In this document: piece by piece, positions 49,512 to 57,407 of the stretch
Numbering within the stretch: the stretch's first letter is position 1
Layout: the number at the start of each line of letters is the position of its first letter
Assembly (NCBI RefSeq): GCF_019977755.1
Contig: NZ_AP025144.1
Coordinates: forward strand, 2,046,001 to 2,110,000
Reading direction: 5' to 3'
DNA length: 64,000 bases
Source of the DNA: Vibrio penaeicida
GTDB taxonomy: Bacteria > Pseudomonadota > Gammaproteobacteria > Enterobacterales > Vibrionaceae
The notes under the pieces: model-generated
What the model was told of the DNA's origin: nothing
The model's input: the letters and a program-made list of their open reading frames with translations, nothing else
The model's database searches: none
Position numbers and translations under genes: made by a program

Positions 49512-49670
49512 CCAATTTTTATACTACTCTAACGGCATTTCACATTTCCTTCGCCCTCTCGAAAAGTAAAAAGTCAATTAACTGAAACAACATCGTGATA
49601 TCCATTTGCAATTGTCCTCATGCTGACAGAAAATACCGCCCCTACCCAACTTCGAACATCAGGCTGGTAT

Positions 49671-50867
49671 ATGACTCCTGCTATACATTTGACTAAAGGT
49701 CGTGAAAAATCACTTCGTCGCAAACACCCTTGGATATTTTCACGAGGCATTGAAAAGGTAACAGGTGAGCCTGAAATGGGCGAAACAGTTGACGTATTTG
49801 CGCATTCAGGTCAATGGCTAGCAAAAGCCGCATTTTCTCCGAAATCGCAAATCAGAGCGCGTGTTTGGTCTTTCGATAAATCCGATAAAATAGACCAATC
49901 TTTTTTTGAGAAACGTATTCGCGATGCCCAGCTTCTTAGAGAAGACATCATTGCGAGAGATGGGCTGACTGGATATCGCTTAATCGCCGCTGAATCAGAT
50001 GGGCTGCCGGGCATCACTATAGACAAGTATGATAACTTTCTCGTGTGTCAGCTTTTAAGCGCTGGAGCGGAACATAACAAAGCCACGATCGTTAACGCGC
50101 TTATTGCGTGCTTCCCGAATCACAATATTTACGAGCGTTCAGATGTATCTGTAAGAAAGAAAGAAGGGTTAGAGGAAATCGTAGGCGTTTTGCACGGTGA
50201 TTTACCACCGAAATTCGTTACCATCGAAGAGAATGGTGTAAAAATTAATGTCGATATCGTAAATGGTCATAAGACTGGTTTTTATCTTGACCAACGAGAC
50301 AGTCGTTTACAAGCGATGAAATACGTAAAGGACAAAGAAGTTCTTAACTGTTTCTCCTATACGGGCGGGTTTGGTTTATACGCCTTAAAAGGCGGCGCTA
50401 AGCGTGTCATCAATGCTGATGTTTCTCAACCAGCGTTAGATACTGCCAAGTTCAATGCAGAAGCCAATGGCTTTGATATATCGAAAAAGCGTGCTGTCTT
50501 CCTTAATGCCGATGTATTCAAGCTGCTTCGCGAATACCGCGATCAAGGTACAAAATTTGATGTCGTCATTATGGACCCACCAAAGTTTGCGGAATCTAAG
50601 TCTCAACTTAATGGTGCATGCAGAGGCTATAAAGACATCAACATGCTTGCAATGCAAATCCTAAACCCAGGCGGAACCTTACTCACTTACTCTTGTTCCG
50701 GTTTGATGGAAAGTGATTTGTTCCAAAAAATCATCGCTGATGCCGCTGTGGACGCAGGACGAAACGTAAAGTTTGTGGAGCGATTCGAGCAAGCCGCCGA
50801 TCACCCTGTCGACACCGCTTACCCTGAAGGTTTTTATCTAAAAGGCTTCGCTTGTAAAGTGCTGTAA
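49671..50867 (+). CDS. rlmI: 23S rRNA m5C1962 methyltransferase RlmI
   Basis: RlmI methylates C1962 in 23S rRNA. The product has an N-terminal PUA domain ([24 protein letters not shown]), an EEHEH-type middle region and a Rossmann methyltransferase. The latter shows [26 protein letters not shown] and the catalytic Cys in LTYSCSG. The frame extends 17 codons upstream, but the ATG at 49671 ([10 protein letters not shown]) gives 397 residues, one more than E. coli. It closes the conserved yccA-tusE-yccX-rlmI cluster. Confidence 0.95.
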
Positions 50868-51007
50868 ACAAATTTGTATATTTGTTAGGTCTAACATTTC
50901 CAATGAAGTGTTGGACCTATTCAAGTAACCCAACATTGAAGCGGTATTGTCTTTTATGACGGCTGATTCAACAATTCTTATCTTGTTCGTGGCCAATCAG
51001 TAATCTT

Positions 51008-51346
51008 CTAGATATACAATAGCAAAGCCGACGTCCTACTCATATCATCTCTTAACCTTTGCCTTTCGTCATGGTCAATCATTCGATCACATTGCTCTAG
51101 ATTAATCTGCTCCAACAAATTCAGAGTATCCTCTTTAATATCATCTCTTAGAAAACCGTGCTCCACTCCCTCTTTACACAAAACCATGAAGATAATTAGT
51201 TTTTCTAAATCACTACTTTGAATTGCTTTAGCATATTCAACCTGCACACGCGAAGTTGCTTGCCTGATATTTAACCCATCGTTCAAAAACTCTTCAATAT
51301 CTTCACGAATAAATTCTTGAAGCTCTTCATACGTCCATTTATCCAC
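51008..51346 (-). CDS. Putative immunity protein of a lost Rhs toxin (Imm3-like)
   Basis: This 112-residue acidic, all-helical cytoplasmic protein begins DKWTYEELQEFIREDI and has a central LEKLIIFMVLCKEGVEHGF, reminiscent of the Imm3 family. The match is by eye and tentative. The start is a GTG at 51346, 2 bp after the TAA (51349-51351) that ends a toxin-like stub in the adjacent frame. This is the usual toxin-immunity spacing. The toxin itself is gone apart from that stub. Retention of an intact immunity gene protects against siblings that still carry the toxin. Confidence 0.6.
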   Translation of the reverse strand: MDKWTYEELQEFIREDIEEFLNDGLNIRQATSRVQVEYAKAIQSSDLEKLIIFMVLCKEGVEHGFLRDDIKEDTLNLLEQINLEQCDRMIDHDERQRLRDDMSRTSALLLYI

Positions 51347-51348
51347 AA

Positions 51349-51877
51349 TTACTCTCCAGCAAACACATTTAGCTTAATTTTGGGGTATCGATCTTTGAAG
51401 TCGAGATTGGAAACAACAGCGGCACGTGGCTATTGGGTTGATAGATATACCAACGGTAGCTGCTCTGGGTGACTTCACCAATCAGTTTGCTGCCTTGCCA
51501 GATAAACTGGGTGACGCCTGTTTCTGTCGTCTTTTTGCTTCGGCGACCTAGCGCATCGTATTCGTAGTGGGCAAGCTTCCCATTGTGGTTGACGGTCACC
51601 AGTTGATTCAGCGCGTTAAACTCACGCCTTTGCAAGTGGTCGCCACCTGCGACTTTTATTTGATTTCCTTGGTCGTCGTAGTGATAACGCAGACCTTCGA
51701 ATTCCAGTATGCGGTCTTTCTCCACAACAATGTCATCACCCACGGGATTGCCAAAACTATCGAATCAATACTTATAAACATCGTCGGGTGTTTTAACACG
51801 GGTCAGTTGAGTCAGCTTGTCGTAATGAAAATGGGTATGCCCTAGTTCATTGTCGACATAGCTAGCGAGATTATGAG
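51349..51877 (-). pseudogene. Truncated Rhs core copy with nonsense mutation, joined to a toxin stub
   Basis: Bases 51418-51877 align without gaps to 54316-54775 of the intact Rhs gene (460 bp each; about 25 differences counted by eye, roughly 95 percent identity). The copy has no start, and an in-frame stop arises from CGA to TGA (51765-51767, YKYRFD becomes YKY-stop). Downstream of 51418 the sequence leaves the Rhs core. The Rhs frame runs to a stop at 51369, but another frame is open to the TAA at 51349-51351 and encodes a stub ending KDRYPKIKLNVFAGE directly before the immunity gene. It is a deletion scar of an older effector tip. Confidence 0.85.
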
Positions 51878-51882
51878 GTGCT

Positions 51883-52023
51883 CTAAGGTGATGCTGGGCT
51901 AAAGATTCGAGAGTTGATAAGGCAAACATGAACTGCTACTTCTTCGTAGGCTGACCTTGCAATATCTTTTGACACATTTCCTTGGGACATTGCTGTTAGG
52001 TATCCAATTGATAAGTCAAAATA
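51883..52023 (-). pseudogene. Relic of an Rhs tip linker
   Basis: A 47-codon open stretch without start reads DLSIGYLTAMSQGN, then ARSAYEEVA. It resembles the linker after the Rhs core in the intact gene (DLTFGIVYGGNSS, then ADMRAYEEVA). It probably descends from another replaced effector tip. The similarity is short, so the call is tentative. Confidence 0.35.
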
Positions 52024-52052
52024 TTATTCTTCATGGACAAAGTTTACTTCTA

Positions 52053-52316
52053 TTAACTCAAATCATCCAATAGCTCTTCTAACCATTCATTCAGGTTTTC
52101 TCTCGAATCAAAATCTTCCTCAGTTAGTTGCTCATACTCAGAGGGACTAATCAGATTTTGATCTATTGCGTCTCTTAGCTGCTCCTTGAATAACTCAAAG
52201 TCATAAGGAAAACCTTTCCCTGAGACTACAGCTCTTTTAATCAATTCAGGATCATAGCATTCAATGTGGCAATATTTCTTTAACACAGTTTTCAGAGGTT
52301 CTTTGAAATTATTCAT
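52053..52316 (-). CDS. Putative small acidic immunity protein (CdiI/MafI-like)
   Basis: This 87-residue, strongly acidic protein has the pattern DPELIKRAVVSGKGFPYDFELFKEQLRDAI, LISPSEYEQLTEEDF and a C-terminal WLEELLDDL. The arrangement resembles short immunity proteins of contact-dependent and Maf/Rhs toxin systems. The exact family is not certain. It sits in a tandem series of orphan immunity genes and Rhs fragments on the same strand. No toxin gene precedes it, only degenerate sequence. Confidence 0.55.
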   Translation of the reverse strand: MNNFKEPLKTVLKKYCHIECYDPELIKRAVVSGKGFPYDFELFKEQLRDAIDQNLISPSEYEQLTEEDFDSRENLNEWLEELLDDLS

Positions 52317-52689
52317 GTGTTCTAGACTTCACCGAGCCGATATATTTGTGTTAAAAATAAACGTGACAAGAGTTCCATGTAATATTGTAAATCAAAACGA
52401 TAGGTTTGATTTCACGCGCTTCAAAAAGCTGGAGTTACAACGTACTGCATAACCATAGGAATACGGATAAGTCGTGAAACATACGCTGGCGAATTAACAG
52501 GCAGTTATCGTTATTCACCATCACAGGTTATAAAAACATCATTACTAATTTACAGAATACTTATACGCTCAGTAAAGCGAGAGATGAACGTCCCCTCAAA
52601 AAGCTAGAATCTTACGCAATATTATCTGAGCATTCATTTGGGGGTAAACTCACGCTCTAAATATGGTGCTATGAGTTCACTGGTCTTAT
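52317..52689. other. 373-bp gap between immunity genes, degenerate sequence
   Basis: No intact gene is present. On the minus strand short frames with similarity to the Rhs core (about 52440-52520) are interrupted by stops and small deletions. The rest is unrecognised and probably holds remains of a lost toxin tip. Confidence 0.5.
52440..52520 (-). pseudogene. Diverged relic of the Rhs core
   Basis: On the minus strand the sequence encodes LLIRQRMFHD, matching QLIRQRTFHA of the intact Rhs protein (gene position about 55590-55625). It is followed after an apparent deletion by bases similar to the next core segment (CGTATTCCTATGGTTATGCAG against CGTATTCTTACGACGATGCAG in overall pattern). It is an old, decayed copy. 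Confidence 0.4.
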
Positions 52690-53097
52690 TCACAGATCTA
52701 TAACGACTTCAGAATCAAATTTCTCAGGTAACTTGAGAAAACTTTCCCATGCTTTGATTACAGTTTTAAATTCCGAAAATGAAAACCTGCCTTCTTTTTG
52801 ACCAACCCAGTCATCATTGATGATTATATCAACTTGAATATAAGCTTTTGATAGGGTAATTTCTACGTCGTTTCCTTCAATTTCTAGTTCGTTATCTTGC
52901 CCTGTTTCAATTTTTTTAATTTGCGCTAATATCCGATCACAGTCATCAATAGACTGAGCAACACAGGTTAAAATATTAGCTAGGTATCTTTGATATCTAG
53001 CTGTGCTGCTACCACCTGAAAACTCTTGACATTTATGGTAAATCTGACCAAGGACGGGATGGTTCCCACCATTAGCATAATATAATCTTAACTTCAT
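52690..53097 (-). CDS. Presumed immunity protein for the Rhs EndoU toxin
   Basis: This 135-residue cytoplasmic protein lies directly downstream of the Rhs effector on the same strand. Its conserved-looking core is LGQIYHKCQEFSGGSSTARY, followed by a strand-rich region and a C-terminal FSEFKTVIKAWESFLKLPEKF segment. I do not recognise a named family with certainty. The position after an EndoU-tipped Rhs makes it the expected cognate immunity protein. The frame reaches a TTG at 53109, but GAGG six bases before the ATG at 53097 favours the shorter start, 17 bp after the Rhs stop codon. Confidence 0.7.
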   Translation of the reverse strand: MKLRLYYANGGNHPVLGQIYHKCQEFSGGSSTARYQRYLANILTCVAQSIDDCDRILAQIKKIETGQDNELEIEGNDVEITLSKAYIQVDIIINDDWVGQKEGRFSFSEFKTVIKAWESFLKLPEKFDSEVVIDL

Positions 53098-53114
53098 TCT
53101 ATACCTCAAAGAAT

Positions 53115-56100
53115 TTATGGTGTTTGATATACAGGATAAACCGTAGCTCTTGGCTTAATCCAACCTTCAACCTTGACGCCAGAAGGTGTAACAGAAATCC
53201 ATTTATCGCCCTGGACAATCTTATTAGGATCACTCCATGCAGCATCAATCTCTCTTTTTATACGTATTTCATCCCAATCTTTTGGAAACATAGTATTTGT
53301 CGAGTTGTTACTAGTCTTGGTGATCCACTTCCCTGAGTCTGTTGGATCAGGAACTTGTATAGTTGCCTTATAAACACCTGCTATGTCAGGAACTGACTCC
53401 GTACCGCTCACAATACGAACATCACCATAAAGCAAACTATGACCTCCTGTAGGCTTACCTCGTTTAGTGTAATCAGCCCTTAAAACATGATCAAACTCTA
53501 TCGGTGATTGCTGCGTGTACTTACTTGAAGCATTTCCAGTCAATCTAGCAAGGTTATCTGAGTCAGGCACCACATTCAACGCACTATCAGAAGATTTGGC
53601 TAATGAAGACAATGCCTTCTCATCTACTGCTGCATCTACTACCTCAAAAACATCATCAGCATGCTTAGTCGCAGAACGAGCCAACCCCGAAGGGGTTACC
53701 ATTGTCGCATAACGCTCAAGGCCAGCGACTTCTTCGTACGCTCGCATATCCGCTAAGTCATCTGGGGTTGGGTGTAATGCAGGTATAGAAGAGTTACCCC
53801 CGTATACAATTCCAAAAGTCAGATCGCTTACCATTGTTTTCAGGAACCCAAGCGAAGCGTAACCTTTAATAGGAGTGATACTTCCAAAAACATGAGGCGT
53901 AACTAAATTGGAAACCACTTGGGTTTCTACAACACCACTATTCGCTACTTTGGGAGCAACGACTGAGTTTGGCTCTTCGCAACACAAACCTGATGGGTCT
54001 ATCCACATGACTGGGTTGGGAGCGTATTGGTAGTGATTGATTCCGCCAAGTAAGCCGATTGGGTCGGGTTGGATAAAGCGACCTGTGAATGGGTCGTAGT
54101 ATCTAGCTAGGTTGTAATGCAGCCCAGATTCTTGGTCGAAGTATTGTCCTTGGAAGCGGATTGGGTTCGCGACCTCTTCTACCTCAATGGATGCCTGTCC
54201 TTGTGGATTGTAGTTGGCTTGCCATACCACTTTGCCATTTAAATCGACCATTCGGATTGGGGTGCCTAGGTGGTCGTTTTGGTAAAAGTAGCATACTTCA
54301 TCTATCACCAGCATTAGCGGCGCGTAGCTATTGGGTTGATAGAGATACCAACGGTAGCTGCCCTGATTGACTTCTCCAATCAGTTTTCTGCCTTGCCAGA
54401 TAAACTGGGTGACACCCGTTTCTGTCGCCTTTTTACTTCGGCGACCTAGCGCATCGTATTCGTAGTGGGCAAGCTTCCCATTGTGGTTGACGGTCACCAG
54501 TTGATTCAGCGCGTTAAACTCACGCCTTTGCAAGTGGTCGCCACCAGCGACTTTTATTTGATTTCCTTGGTCGTCGTAGTGATAACGCAGACCTTCGAAT
54601 TCCAATATGCGGTCTTGCTCCACTACGATGTCATCGCCCACAGGGTTGCCAAAACTATCAAATCGATACTTATAGACATCGTCGGGTGTTTTAACACGGG
54701 TCAGTTGAGTCAGCTTGTCGTAATGAAAATGGGTATGCCCTAGTTCATTGTCAACATAGCTAGCAAGATTATGAGCGACATCGTAGCGGTATTGTCGACT
54801 ACGAGTGCCCCACTCCTGAGATTTCAGCCGCCCGATGCCATCGTACGCTCTGGTCTCGTTGAGATTATCGCCATAATGGAGAGAAGCCAACCGCCCCATC
54901 TGGTCATATTGAATTTCGATGTTCGGTGATAACGCGTTACCTAGGCTTTGAGCGCTGCGAGCAATTGTGGTTAGGCGACCAAATTCATCGTAGCCAAAGT
55001 TAAGAAACTCGCCGCTCGGCAACTCGAGCGCTTCACAAAGCCCTTTGTCATTGTATTGATACCTGACACAGACAGTCGATTGCCATTCAGCGGTAGGGAG
55101 ACCTCGCTCATTGTATTCAAAGGCTAGGCTCGTCGATTCATTTGATGCATGAAGAAGTTTACCTCCATGGCTATGCTGAAAATGACACTCATTGAAAGTA
55201 TGCCCTGTTTTCCCTTTGAGCGAAGCAATATCACCGTGGGCATTGTAGATAATTTTTACAGCTCGACTGCCGGATTGTAATTCACTGATGCGACCAGAAA
55301 CATCGTACTGGTAGTGTTGCTTTATCCCATCAAACCCTTGTGTTTGAGTTAACAATCCATCCGGTGACAACTCTAAGCGATAGTCTAGGCTATCACTTCG
55401 ATGAATGGATTTTAGGTTGCGCTCCCCATCGTATTGAAAGTACAGCCCACTGCCATCACTGCGGTTTAGTCCTTCTGGTTGAGAAAGCTCTCCCCATTCA
55501 AACCCTGTTAAACCACTTGGCGTTTGAATGGATGTAATACGTCCTGCATCGTCGTAAGAATACGAATGTTCACGACATACGCTTTTATCAAAAGCGTGAA
55601 AGGTGCGCTGACGAATTAACTGACCTCTGTCATTCTGTTCTAAAGTGACAAACATCCCGTCAGGGTATGCCATCCCATTGATTTGATTAGATTGGTTGTG
55701 GCTGTAACGAATTAATGTGCCGTTCGTTTGTAAGCCCTGAAGTTGGTTCTGTTCATTCCACCACCAGCGCTCATGGTTGCCATTTGATTGTGTTCGCTCT
55801 ATCAAGCGACCTTTTTTGTCATAGTGATATTGGCTGGAGATTTGGCTTTCATCAACACTAGAAACGAGCTGGCCAAGGCTATTGAACTTGCGACGGCTTG
55901 TTTGCCCGTCTGGCGTAACTATCGCTTCTGGTCTGCCTGATTCATCGTAACGATACTGCGTAACAGCACCACTGCTACGTCGCTTCACTGCTAGCTGACC
56001 AAACTTGTTATAAAAATGCTCAGTGAAGGTACTATCAGCTTGAATTTCTTTGGCGAGCCGCCCTAACTCATCGTATTGCCATTCTTGAATACGCCCTTCT

Positions 56101-57407
56101 GGGCTAGTTTTCTTTAACAGCTTACCATTATTATCGTGATTGAAAAGCCAGCGATTGCCTAAAGTATCAGTGTAACTGGATTCGCCATCACCAAACAAAA
56201 AACGATAGTCATAGGTATTATTGTCCCCGTAGTTTCGAATGCACTTGGCATTTTTCCCATCACCTTGCCATTCAAAGTAATGAGTGAAACCACTTGGACG
56301 CTTTCTCGTGAGAAGTAATGCATCATTGCGGTAAGTATACGTTTCAACTAGCCCAGACTGATTGCTAGCGGACGTTAGCTCCCCTTCTTCGACAGTATAT
56401 TCTACAACGAGAGCTTCGGTATTCGGACATCTTAGACCAATAAGCTGCCCTTCTTTATCGTATTGACAATACAGAGCGAGAACACTGTTTGAATGCAATT
56501 CAATCAGCCTTCCATTAGAAGAATATTTTAGGTCTATTTGCTTAAGCGCAATATCCCGTATTTGAATCAGTTTCCATATGTCATTCAATAGAAAGAACTT
56601 GTATTGCGTTCCATCTGACAGCGTGACAATTCTGTAACCATTCGCATGATGTAAGCAAGAAGCACCTGCTCTTATCTGGTAACTGATAGCCCCTTTGCCT
56701 ACAGGTAAGAACTCAATGGTATCGCCAAGATCATCGACAAAGCGCCAGCTTTCTACATTCTCTTCTTCATCCTTATTTTCTAAGAAGTCAAAACAATAAC
56801 TATGCCTCCAACCAAGCCCCATTCCCTGGTCTTGCTGACAAAGTGAAGAGCGGTAATGGCGAACCCATTTCAAACCTTCTAGGTTTGTATAGTCCTCAAG
56901 AGATAAGAGCTCTTCACCTGTCACCATTGAAACTGGGTCACCACCCGTTTCGTGTTCTTTAGCACTCACAGGTGTATGACTGTCGGATGAAGCACTTTCA
57001 TTTTCTTGTGCCTCTTCCGATTTTCCATCTGAAGGCGCTTTTTCTTCTTTTGCTGCCTCTTCATACACGACTTCTTCAAGCTCTGGGCTAGAAATGGAAG
57101 GAGTCGACGCTTCGACAAAGCAAAACAGCTTGCCGTTAGCCAATGAGTTGGCTAACGCTTGAATTTGGGCATTTTGGCGCTCAAACACCTTAAGTGGTGC
57201 TGAAGCGTTCGTCGCACTAAAGGTAGATAATTGACTAAGCAAAGCCAAAGACTGTGAATCTGATTTTGCAAACAAGAAATGTGCAAAATTTAACGCTTCA
57301 CGTTCATCTTGGAACGACTTTAATTTCCCTTTTCCTTGCTTGTAGTTGGAAAAAGTATAAAGCTCAGATCCGCGTCGAATCGATTTACTGAAGTTATCCT
57401 TAATCAT
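53115..57407 (-). CDS. T6SS Rhs effector with C-terminal EndoU RNase toxin domain
   Basis: The protein has 1430 residues. The first 100 are helical without PAAR or membrane segments. An acidic low-complexity linker follows (about 105-150), then the DUF6531 segment DPVSMVTGEELLSLEDYTNL. The YD-repeat shell (about 240-1100) ends in the Rhs-associated core YYDPFTGRFIQPDPIGLLGG (near 1100-1120) and DPSGL. Rhs shells autocleave near this motif and enclose the toxin. The variable tip (about 1300-1430) matches bacterial EndoU: His in FDHVL and GGHSLLYG, Lys in KWITKT, and the STNTMFPKDW motif. It probably cleaves RNA, possibly tRNA. It follows the 303-residue gene by 14 bp. Confidence 0.9.
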   Translation of the reverse strand: MIKDNFSKSIRRGSELYTFSNYKQGKGKLKSFQDEREALNFAHFLFAKSDSQSLALLSQLSTFSATNASAPLKVFERQNAQIQALANSLANGKLFCFVEASTPSISSPELEEVVYEEAAKEEKAPSDGKSEEAQENESASSDSHTPVSAKEHETGGDPVSMVTGEELLSLEDYTNLEGLKWVRHYRSSLCQQDQGMGLGWRHSYCFDFLENKDEEENVESWRFVDDLGDTIEFLPVGKGAISYQIRAGASCLHHANGYRIVTLSDGTQYKFFLLNDIWKLIQIRDIALKQIDLKYSSNGRLIELHSNSVLALYCQYDKEGQLIGLRCPNTEALVVEYTVEEGELTSASNQSGLVETYTYRNDALLLTRKRPSGFTHYFEWQGDGKNAKCIRNYGDNNTYDYRFLFGDGESSYTDTLGNRWLFNHDNNGKLLKKTSPEGRIQEWQYDELGRLAKEIQADSTFTEHFYNKFGQLAVKRRSSGAVTQYRYDESGRPEAIVTPDGQTSRRKFNSLGQLVSSVDESQISSQYHYDKKGRLIERTQSNGNHERWWWNEQNQLQGLQTNGTLIRYSHNQSNQINGMAYPDGMFVTLEQNDRGQLIRQRTFHAFDKSVCREHSYSYDDAGRITSIQTPSGLTGFEWGELSQPEGLNRSDGSGLYFQYDGERNLKSIHRSDSLDYRLELSPDGLLTQTQGFDGIKQHYQYDVSGRISELQSGSRAVKIIYNAHGDIASLKGKTGHTFNECHFQHSHGGKLLHASNESTSLAFEYNERGLPTAEWQSTVCVRYQYNDKGLCEALELPSGEFLNFGYDEFGRLTTIARSAQSLGNALSPNIEIQYDQMGRLASLHYGDNLNETRAYDGIGRLKSQEWGTRSRQYRYDVAHNLASYVDNELGHTHFHYDKLTQLTRVKTPDDVYKYRFDSFGNPVGDDIVVEQDRILEFEGLRYHYDDQGNQIKVAGGDHLQRREFNALNQLVTVNHNGKLAHYEYDALGRRSKKATETGVTQFIWQGRKLIGEVNQGSYRWYLYQPNSYAPLMLVIDEVCYFYQNDHLGTPIRMVDLNGKVVWQANYNPQGQASIEVEEVANPIRFQGQYFDQESGLHYNLARYYDPFTGRFIQPDPIGLLGGINHYQYAPNPVMWIDPSGLCCEEPNSVVAPKVANSGVVETQVVSNLVTPHVFGSITPIKGYASLGFLKTMVSDLTFGIVYGGNSSIPALHPTPDDLADMRAYEEVAGLERYATMVTPSGLARSATKHADDVFEVVDAAVDEKALSSLAKSSDSALNVVPDSDNLARLTGNASSKYTQQSPIEFDHVLRADYTKRGKPTGGHSLLYGDVRIVSGTESVPDIAGVYKATIQVPDPTDSGKWITKTSNNSTNTMFPKDWDEIRIKREIDAAWSDPNKIVQGDKWISVTPSGVKVEGWIKPRATVYPVYQTP
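54316..54775 (-). repeat. Segment of the intact Rhs core duplicated at 51418-51877
   Basis: This 460-bp part of the Rhs core is the intact partner of the pseudogene copy, same orientation, about 2.4 kb apart. Recombination between the two would delete the EndoU tip, its immunity gene and the 52053 immunity gene. Confidence 0.9.

Follow-up and report, generated by a model that had tools for sequence, protein, structure and literature searches.

How does an rhs effector gene come to be followed by small intact genes and by short copies of its own core, and can the order of these pieces be read as a history? The question arises at a locus within a stretch of 64,000 nucleotides (hereafter the window), which corresponds to C1:2046001-2110000; the genome comprises 6.78 Mb in 3 contigs. 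A first-pass annotation of the window suggested that Rhs effector tips had been replaced at this locus while their immunity genes survived, and this view is supported by our analysis since both small proteins concerned follow toxin tips elsewhere.

The intact rhs gene (53115-57407, minus strand) encodes a protein of 1430 aa that combines DUF6531, RHS repeats and the RHS core with an EndoU tip (EndoU_bacteria, 51.1 bits versus a cut-off of 25.3). The genes upstream of it presumably encode components of a type VI secretion system (T6SS), namely the adaptor, VgrG, Hcp and ClpV. Three small open frames follow on the same minus strand (52690-53109, 52053-52316 and 51008-51346), and downstream of them lies a convergent gene (49620-50867) which we take to encode an rRNA methyltransferase. 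Based on its position the frame at 52690-53109 (139 aa) is presumed to encode the cognate immunity protein of the EndoU tip. The frames at 52053-52316 (87 aa) and 51008-51346 (112 aa) are both open, in agreement with the earlier description of two intact putative immunity genes on one strand. The G+C content amounts to 35-37% in the three small genes, 45% in the rhs core and 48% in a displaced core fragment between them. A scan of 50800-53200 against Rfam gave no match.

Two side observations concern this setting. The product of 52690-53109 shows a weak likeness to UPF0231 (19.7 bits, below the cut-off of 25), which is a possible lead to the role of UPF0231. Furthermore, frames with RHS repeats of 2324, 2571, 1319 and 4044 aa were noted on C2 of the same genome (~119-129 kb, 425-427 kb and 1918-1920 kb).

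With a probability of roughly 0.88 we regard the array as the tail of a T6SS Rhs effector locus whose tip has been exchanged more than once, with immunity genes surviving the exchanges. An incoming module of tip and immunity gene would join the rhs gene via the conserved core and displace downstream what had stood there before, namely core end, tip and immunity gene; the displaced toxin parts would then be deleted or decay, and the immunity genes would stay open. The current tip is EndoU. One former tip would have been a BURPS668_1122-type deaminase, its remains being 460 bp of core, 17 codons from the end of the toxin and an Imm3 gene. A further former tip probably belonged to an unnamed toxin family that is possibly RNase A-like; what is left of it would be the immunity gene at 52053-52316 (hereafter the 52053 gene) and at most a 30-nt core relic.

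Relatives of the locus were searched for with the gene before rhs in 227 genomes. Of the 25 matches four reached at least 85%, namely the window itself, G171 (99%), G136 (96%; by inference Vibrio penaeicida TUMSAT-NU1) and G175 (85%).

Rhs core pieces and the remnant before Imm3

The core copy at 51418-51877 (minus strand) aligns without gaps to rhs positions 54316-54775 over 460 bp with 94.6% identity. It contains a single in-frame stop (51765-51767), just as the first reading of the sequence had it, and no frameshift. Over the 460 nt the fragment differs at 13 and 16 positions from the two cores of G171 (97.2% and 96.5% identity), at 21 from the core of G136 and at 25 from the window's own core, the nearest relative of which is the core of G136 (15 differences). 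Four changes are private to the fragment and all of them, the stop included, affect codon positions 1 or 2. This would fit decay after separation from the intact gene, though four changes are few.

An older core relic had also been proposed, and it is recovered as 30 nt at 52469-52498 (minus strand) with 90% identity to the rhs core of G171 and 87% to that of G136. The 277-nt segment to which it belongs attained a best DNA score of 45, while 300 dinucleotide shuffles peaked at 34 and none of them reached 45. At the protein level the respective score was reached by 0 of 400 shuffles for 52413-52560 and by 1 of 400 for 52413-52689. Thus, the intact rhs gene is followed on the same strand by two core pieces of the same clade, and since both the fragment and the relic lie above chance they argue for displacement.

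The claim of at least three Rhs fragments holds for these two, which align to the Rhs core. The third one, a "linker relic" with AYEEVA at 51935-51952 (16/18 nt, E 0.45), is within chance: among the DNA shuffles 20 of 300 attained the best score of its segment, and at the protein level, where the best alignment was not AYEEVA, 80 of 400 did so. A candidate Rhs relic beyond Imm3 (50880-51007) was rejected as well, its score being reached by 14 of 300 shuffles.

The protein encoded by the full-length open frame 51008-51346 belongs to the Imm3 family (PF14425, 36.4 bits versus the Pfam cut-off of 25). Apart from the window's own genome, a search of 196 genomes belonging to the genus gave one genome with a homologue (G156, 26% identical), and a search of 315 belonging to the order likewise gave one (G732, probably Gallaecimonas xiamenensis, 71% identical). 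The PF14425 profile, run over 329 genomes of the family, matched the window only and missed G156, though the single-protein query had found it; no Imm3 gene was found on plasmids. Both homologues sit behind BURPS668_1122-type deaminase toxins with PF14424 scores of 129.8 bits (G156) and 117 bits (G732).

In G732 a complete Rhs protein of 1393 aa with the C-terminal sequence DFKDRYPNIQLNVFAGE ends two bases upstream of the GTG start of Imm3. The corresponding sequence of the window reads DFKDRYPKIKLNVFAGE, followed by a stop, the identical two-base gap and the GTG of the window's Imm3 gene. Up to the Imm3 start 48 of 58 nt are identical to the Rhs-deaminase end of G732. Compared with the more distant deaminase of G156 the stretch 51349-51404 (minus strand) scored 62, a value reached by none of 2000 shuffles and by none of 6378 other pieces of the window. 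Judging from its score, its identity and the two-base gap, this stretch, which the first-pass annotation had overlooked, represents the final 17 codons and the stop of a deaminase tip, kept directly before Imm3.

Between the core fragment and the remnant there are 13 nt; the two are in different frames, and what has been lost comprises the end of the core and most of the deaminase tip. At the Imm3 end of the array remains of a displaced tip are hence found behind a core copy, whereas none were found before the 52053 gene. A search of the window's own genome with the PF14424 profile (E 0.001) gave no match. The displacement of a former deaminase tip is suggested because the remnant shows the same two-base gap as a complete Rhs-deaminase/Imm3 pair and because both Imm3 homologues elsewhere follow PF14424 toxins.

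The 52053 gene family and its probable partner toxin

The protein encoded by 52053-52316 (minus strand) represents a small family, of which 10 proteins were found, with no Pfam assignment. At 5 of 11 other loci an unnamed toxin domain, truncated in one case, ends 7-11 bp before the start of the homologue. This arrangement likewise argues for displacement. A remnant of the partner toxin was looked for before the window's gene and none was found; we can only infer the former tip at this position because no toxin trace is left there. This absence, and the 6 of 11 other loci at which the toxin domain was not shown, count against the displacement of Rhs tips as the origin of the array.

If the small genes had nothing to do with old Rhs tips, the fragments would be a simple local duplication of the rhs core accompanied by chance matches. 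The AYEEVA match does fall within chance, but the core fragment is not closest to the window's own core, Imm3 scores above the Pfam cut-off and a deaminase end is kept before it. Moreover, the occurrence of both families behind toxin tips elsewhere (Imm3 in G156 and G732, the 52053 family at the 5 loci) already contradicts such a reading, which we therefore consider highly improbable.

The unnamed partner toxin is possibly RNase A-like. However, membership in PF18431 (RNAse_A_bac) was not detected, as no Pfam match up to E 1 was obtained for any of the five members scanned, and a PF18431 search of 118 genomes of the genus yielded a single locus, which is too few for a good profile. A Foldseek search with a model of the 52053 protein gave no match at E 0.001. 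No relative of the 52053 gene was found on viral contigs, and two were found on plasmids, both of Pseudoalteromonas. The class-wide search for the partner toxin gave 0 hits in 369 sampled genomes, a sampling that carries no weight as absence.

Taken together, it seems fairly probable that the 52053 family and its partner constitute a new polymorphic toxin-immunity pair, although we do not claim its first description. The toxin would be a domain of ~150 aa with an invariant GxDPASGT and no Pfam match, maybe a divergent RNase A-like nuclease, carried on Rhs and other effectors of marine bacteria. Its partner would be a small all-helical immunity protein, of which the window would hold an orphan kept under purifying selection after loss of the toxin.

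Some further loci of the family were recorded. In Pseudoalteromonas sp. NC201 (L055 4805-5262) a 62-codon remnant of the unnamed toxin precedes an open 52053-type gene, and P. piscicida (L056) has a 319-codon frame at the position of this remnant; the NC201 locus represents a parallel toxin loss with the immunity gene kept. A 52053 homologue adjoins an ADP-ribosylglycohydrolase-like gene in L017 5241-8642 (G157; PF03747, 121.4 bits), where it lies behind a PAAR-fused protein, and, judged by eye, in L049 7001-8178. The Imm3 and the 52053 protein are each listed with 2 member sequences on 7 contigs. As the longest of these contigs (4,300,323 bases) exceeds that of the window (4,134,604 bases), at least one other assembly carries both genes.

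In comparison to its orthologue in G136 the 52053 gene has a dN/dS of 0.054 at a dS of 0.357 and is under purifying selection, a further argument for displacement with a surviving immunity gene. The orphan genes would presumably be retained as protection against neighbours that still deliver the old toxins. Both their expression and their protective effect are putative, and the promoter scan counts against them with 3 promoter-like sites versus 7.2 expected, that is, no excess (terminator-like sites: 2 versus 1.7 expected). The orphan genes might instead be functionless relics whose decay is still to come. The decaying core fragment next to them, with its four private changes, would be in line with this, as would the orphan immunity genes with nonsense mutations reported by Steele et al. 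(PMC5727410). However, Imm3 is open over its whole length and the 52053 gene has kept its low dN/dS over a dS of 0.36, although part of that time was possibly spent beside the toxin, so that we regard functionless relics as unlikely.

Related loci and the order of the array

The relatives carry different tips at the same locus, and the homology of the core stops sharply at 53970 in both G136 and G171 but continues to 53707 in G175, where the linker is shared. In G136 another tip without a Pfam toxin match above the cut-off is followed by an adjacent 140-aa gene, the 52053 orthologue and genes for Syd (SUKH-2) and DUF6911, the last two in the place that the core fragment and Imm3 occupy in the window. 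A different EndoU tip occurs in G171. The toxin- or immunity-like genes after it include an RNAse_A_bac fragment, which precedes a CdiI_2 gene, and a gene for an Endonuclea_NS_2 protein, which precedes a YezG-like gene. Further on in G171, a displaced core of 1.94 kb lies inside a 1006-aa ORF with its own tip, followed by an HD-domain gene. G175 has yet another tip. In the stretches of G175 and G171 tblastn (E 1e-4) detected no 52053 or Imm3 gene, though the method also missed the 26% identical Imm3 of G156, and distant copies are possible. The exchange of tips is supported because these relatives bear other tips at the same core junction and because G171 contains a displaced core.

The tip of the displaced core in G171 (L043 11733-15471) has no Pfam toxin match itself, and the next HD-domain protein matches the N-terminal spoT_relA part (49.9 bits). 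Judged by eye, the two are perhaps a nucleotide-alarmone toxin and a hydrolase immunity protein. Marinobacter salarius (L052 5328-6937) has a similar-looking tip with an HD gene next to its 52053 homologue.

The array had furthermore been proposed to be an ordered record of earlier toxins, for which we found no support. If it had grown only at the rhs end and had been inherited, everything downstream of the 52053 gene should be common to G136 unless lost. This is not the case, as G136 possesses the 52053 gene with different genes downstream, and the order of the pieces does not correspond to an order of events. In addition, the core fragment groups with G171, and the dS in relation to G136 is 0.357 for the 52053 gene versus 0.133 for the flanking gene (Fisher p 0.007, the sole comparison tested), 0.15 for the rhs core and 0.217 for the adaptor gene. 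To account for these comparisons, lineages must have recombined or parts of the array must have been lost and replaced.

Since the part downstream of the 52053 gene differs from G136, parts of the array may have been imported. The array or parts of it might have been built in another lineage and introduced ready-made by homologous recombination between the rhs core and the flanking gene; the order would then be a mosaic instead of a local time series, which is compatible with displacement elsewhere. The distances of the core fragment to G171 and to its own core, the silent divergence of the 52053 gene and the different genes in G136 speak for such an import, and both import and local routes have been described by Kirchberger et al. 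(PMC5361080). However, the 30-nt core relic before the 52053 gene was not found in the matching part of G136, and no relative with the same core fragment and Imm3 turned up in the genomes searched, which leaves the array without a known donor. We consider the import a serious possibility with chances slightly below even.

For the exchange of Rhs tips as such the locus provides a clear fossil, in that the exact end of an old toxin gene is preserved before the surviving immunity gene. The probable toxin partner of an unassigned small immunity family makes both testable. Caution is required as the order of such arrays should not be taken as time order.

Comparison with known displacement systems

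The mechanism, Rhs C-terminal displacement followed by toxin loss with immunity genes retained, is already published for Enterobacteriaceae, Snodgrassella and V. cholerae. Rhs C-terminal displacement was reported for Enterobacteriaceae by Jackson et al. (2009, PMC2935791), whose loci resemble the present one: behind an intact rhs gene stand partial copies of the core and dissociated tips, some of them carrying stops or frameshifts, and the region is poor in G+C. In contrast to these loci, the toxin tips are nearly gone here and the immunity genes remain; core and tips differ as well.

In Snodgrassella alvi (Steele et al. 2017, PMC5727410) a complete Rhs likewise comes first, and the Rhs genes behind it are truncated and accompanied by immunity genes. 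As here, a few strains have immunity genes whose toxin is gone. Many orphan tips are still whole and active there, whereas both tips are lost here.

The pairing of Imm3 with the BURPS668_1122 deaminase family given by Zhang et al. (2012, PMC3482391), who also note Imm3 in heterogeneous polyimmunity loci, is the same as the one found here. However, the table of that paper lists Imm3 for Firmicutes, while the gene occurs here in gammaproteobacterial Rhs and CdiA-type loci.

The T6SS orphan immunity arrays of V. cholerae (Kirchberger et al. 2017, PMC5361080) also arose as one effector after another was replaced while the old immunity genes stayed downstream; in one case the 3' end of an old effector was kept, as here. 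The main example there is the VgrG-3 effector of V. cholerae, whereas the present array concerns an Rhs effector of another Vibrio with pieces of the rhs core as markers. To these systems it adds a well-resolved instance in another Vibrio clade. It further contributes the deaminase end, preserved as a fossil, and links the 52053 family to a probable toxin partner.
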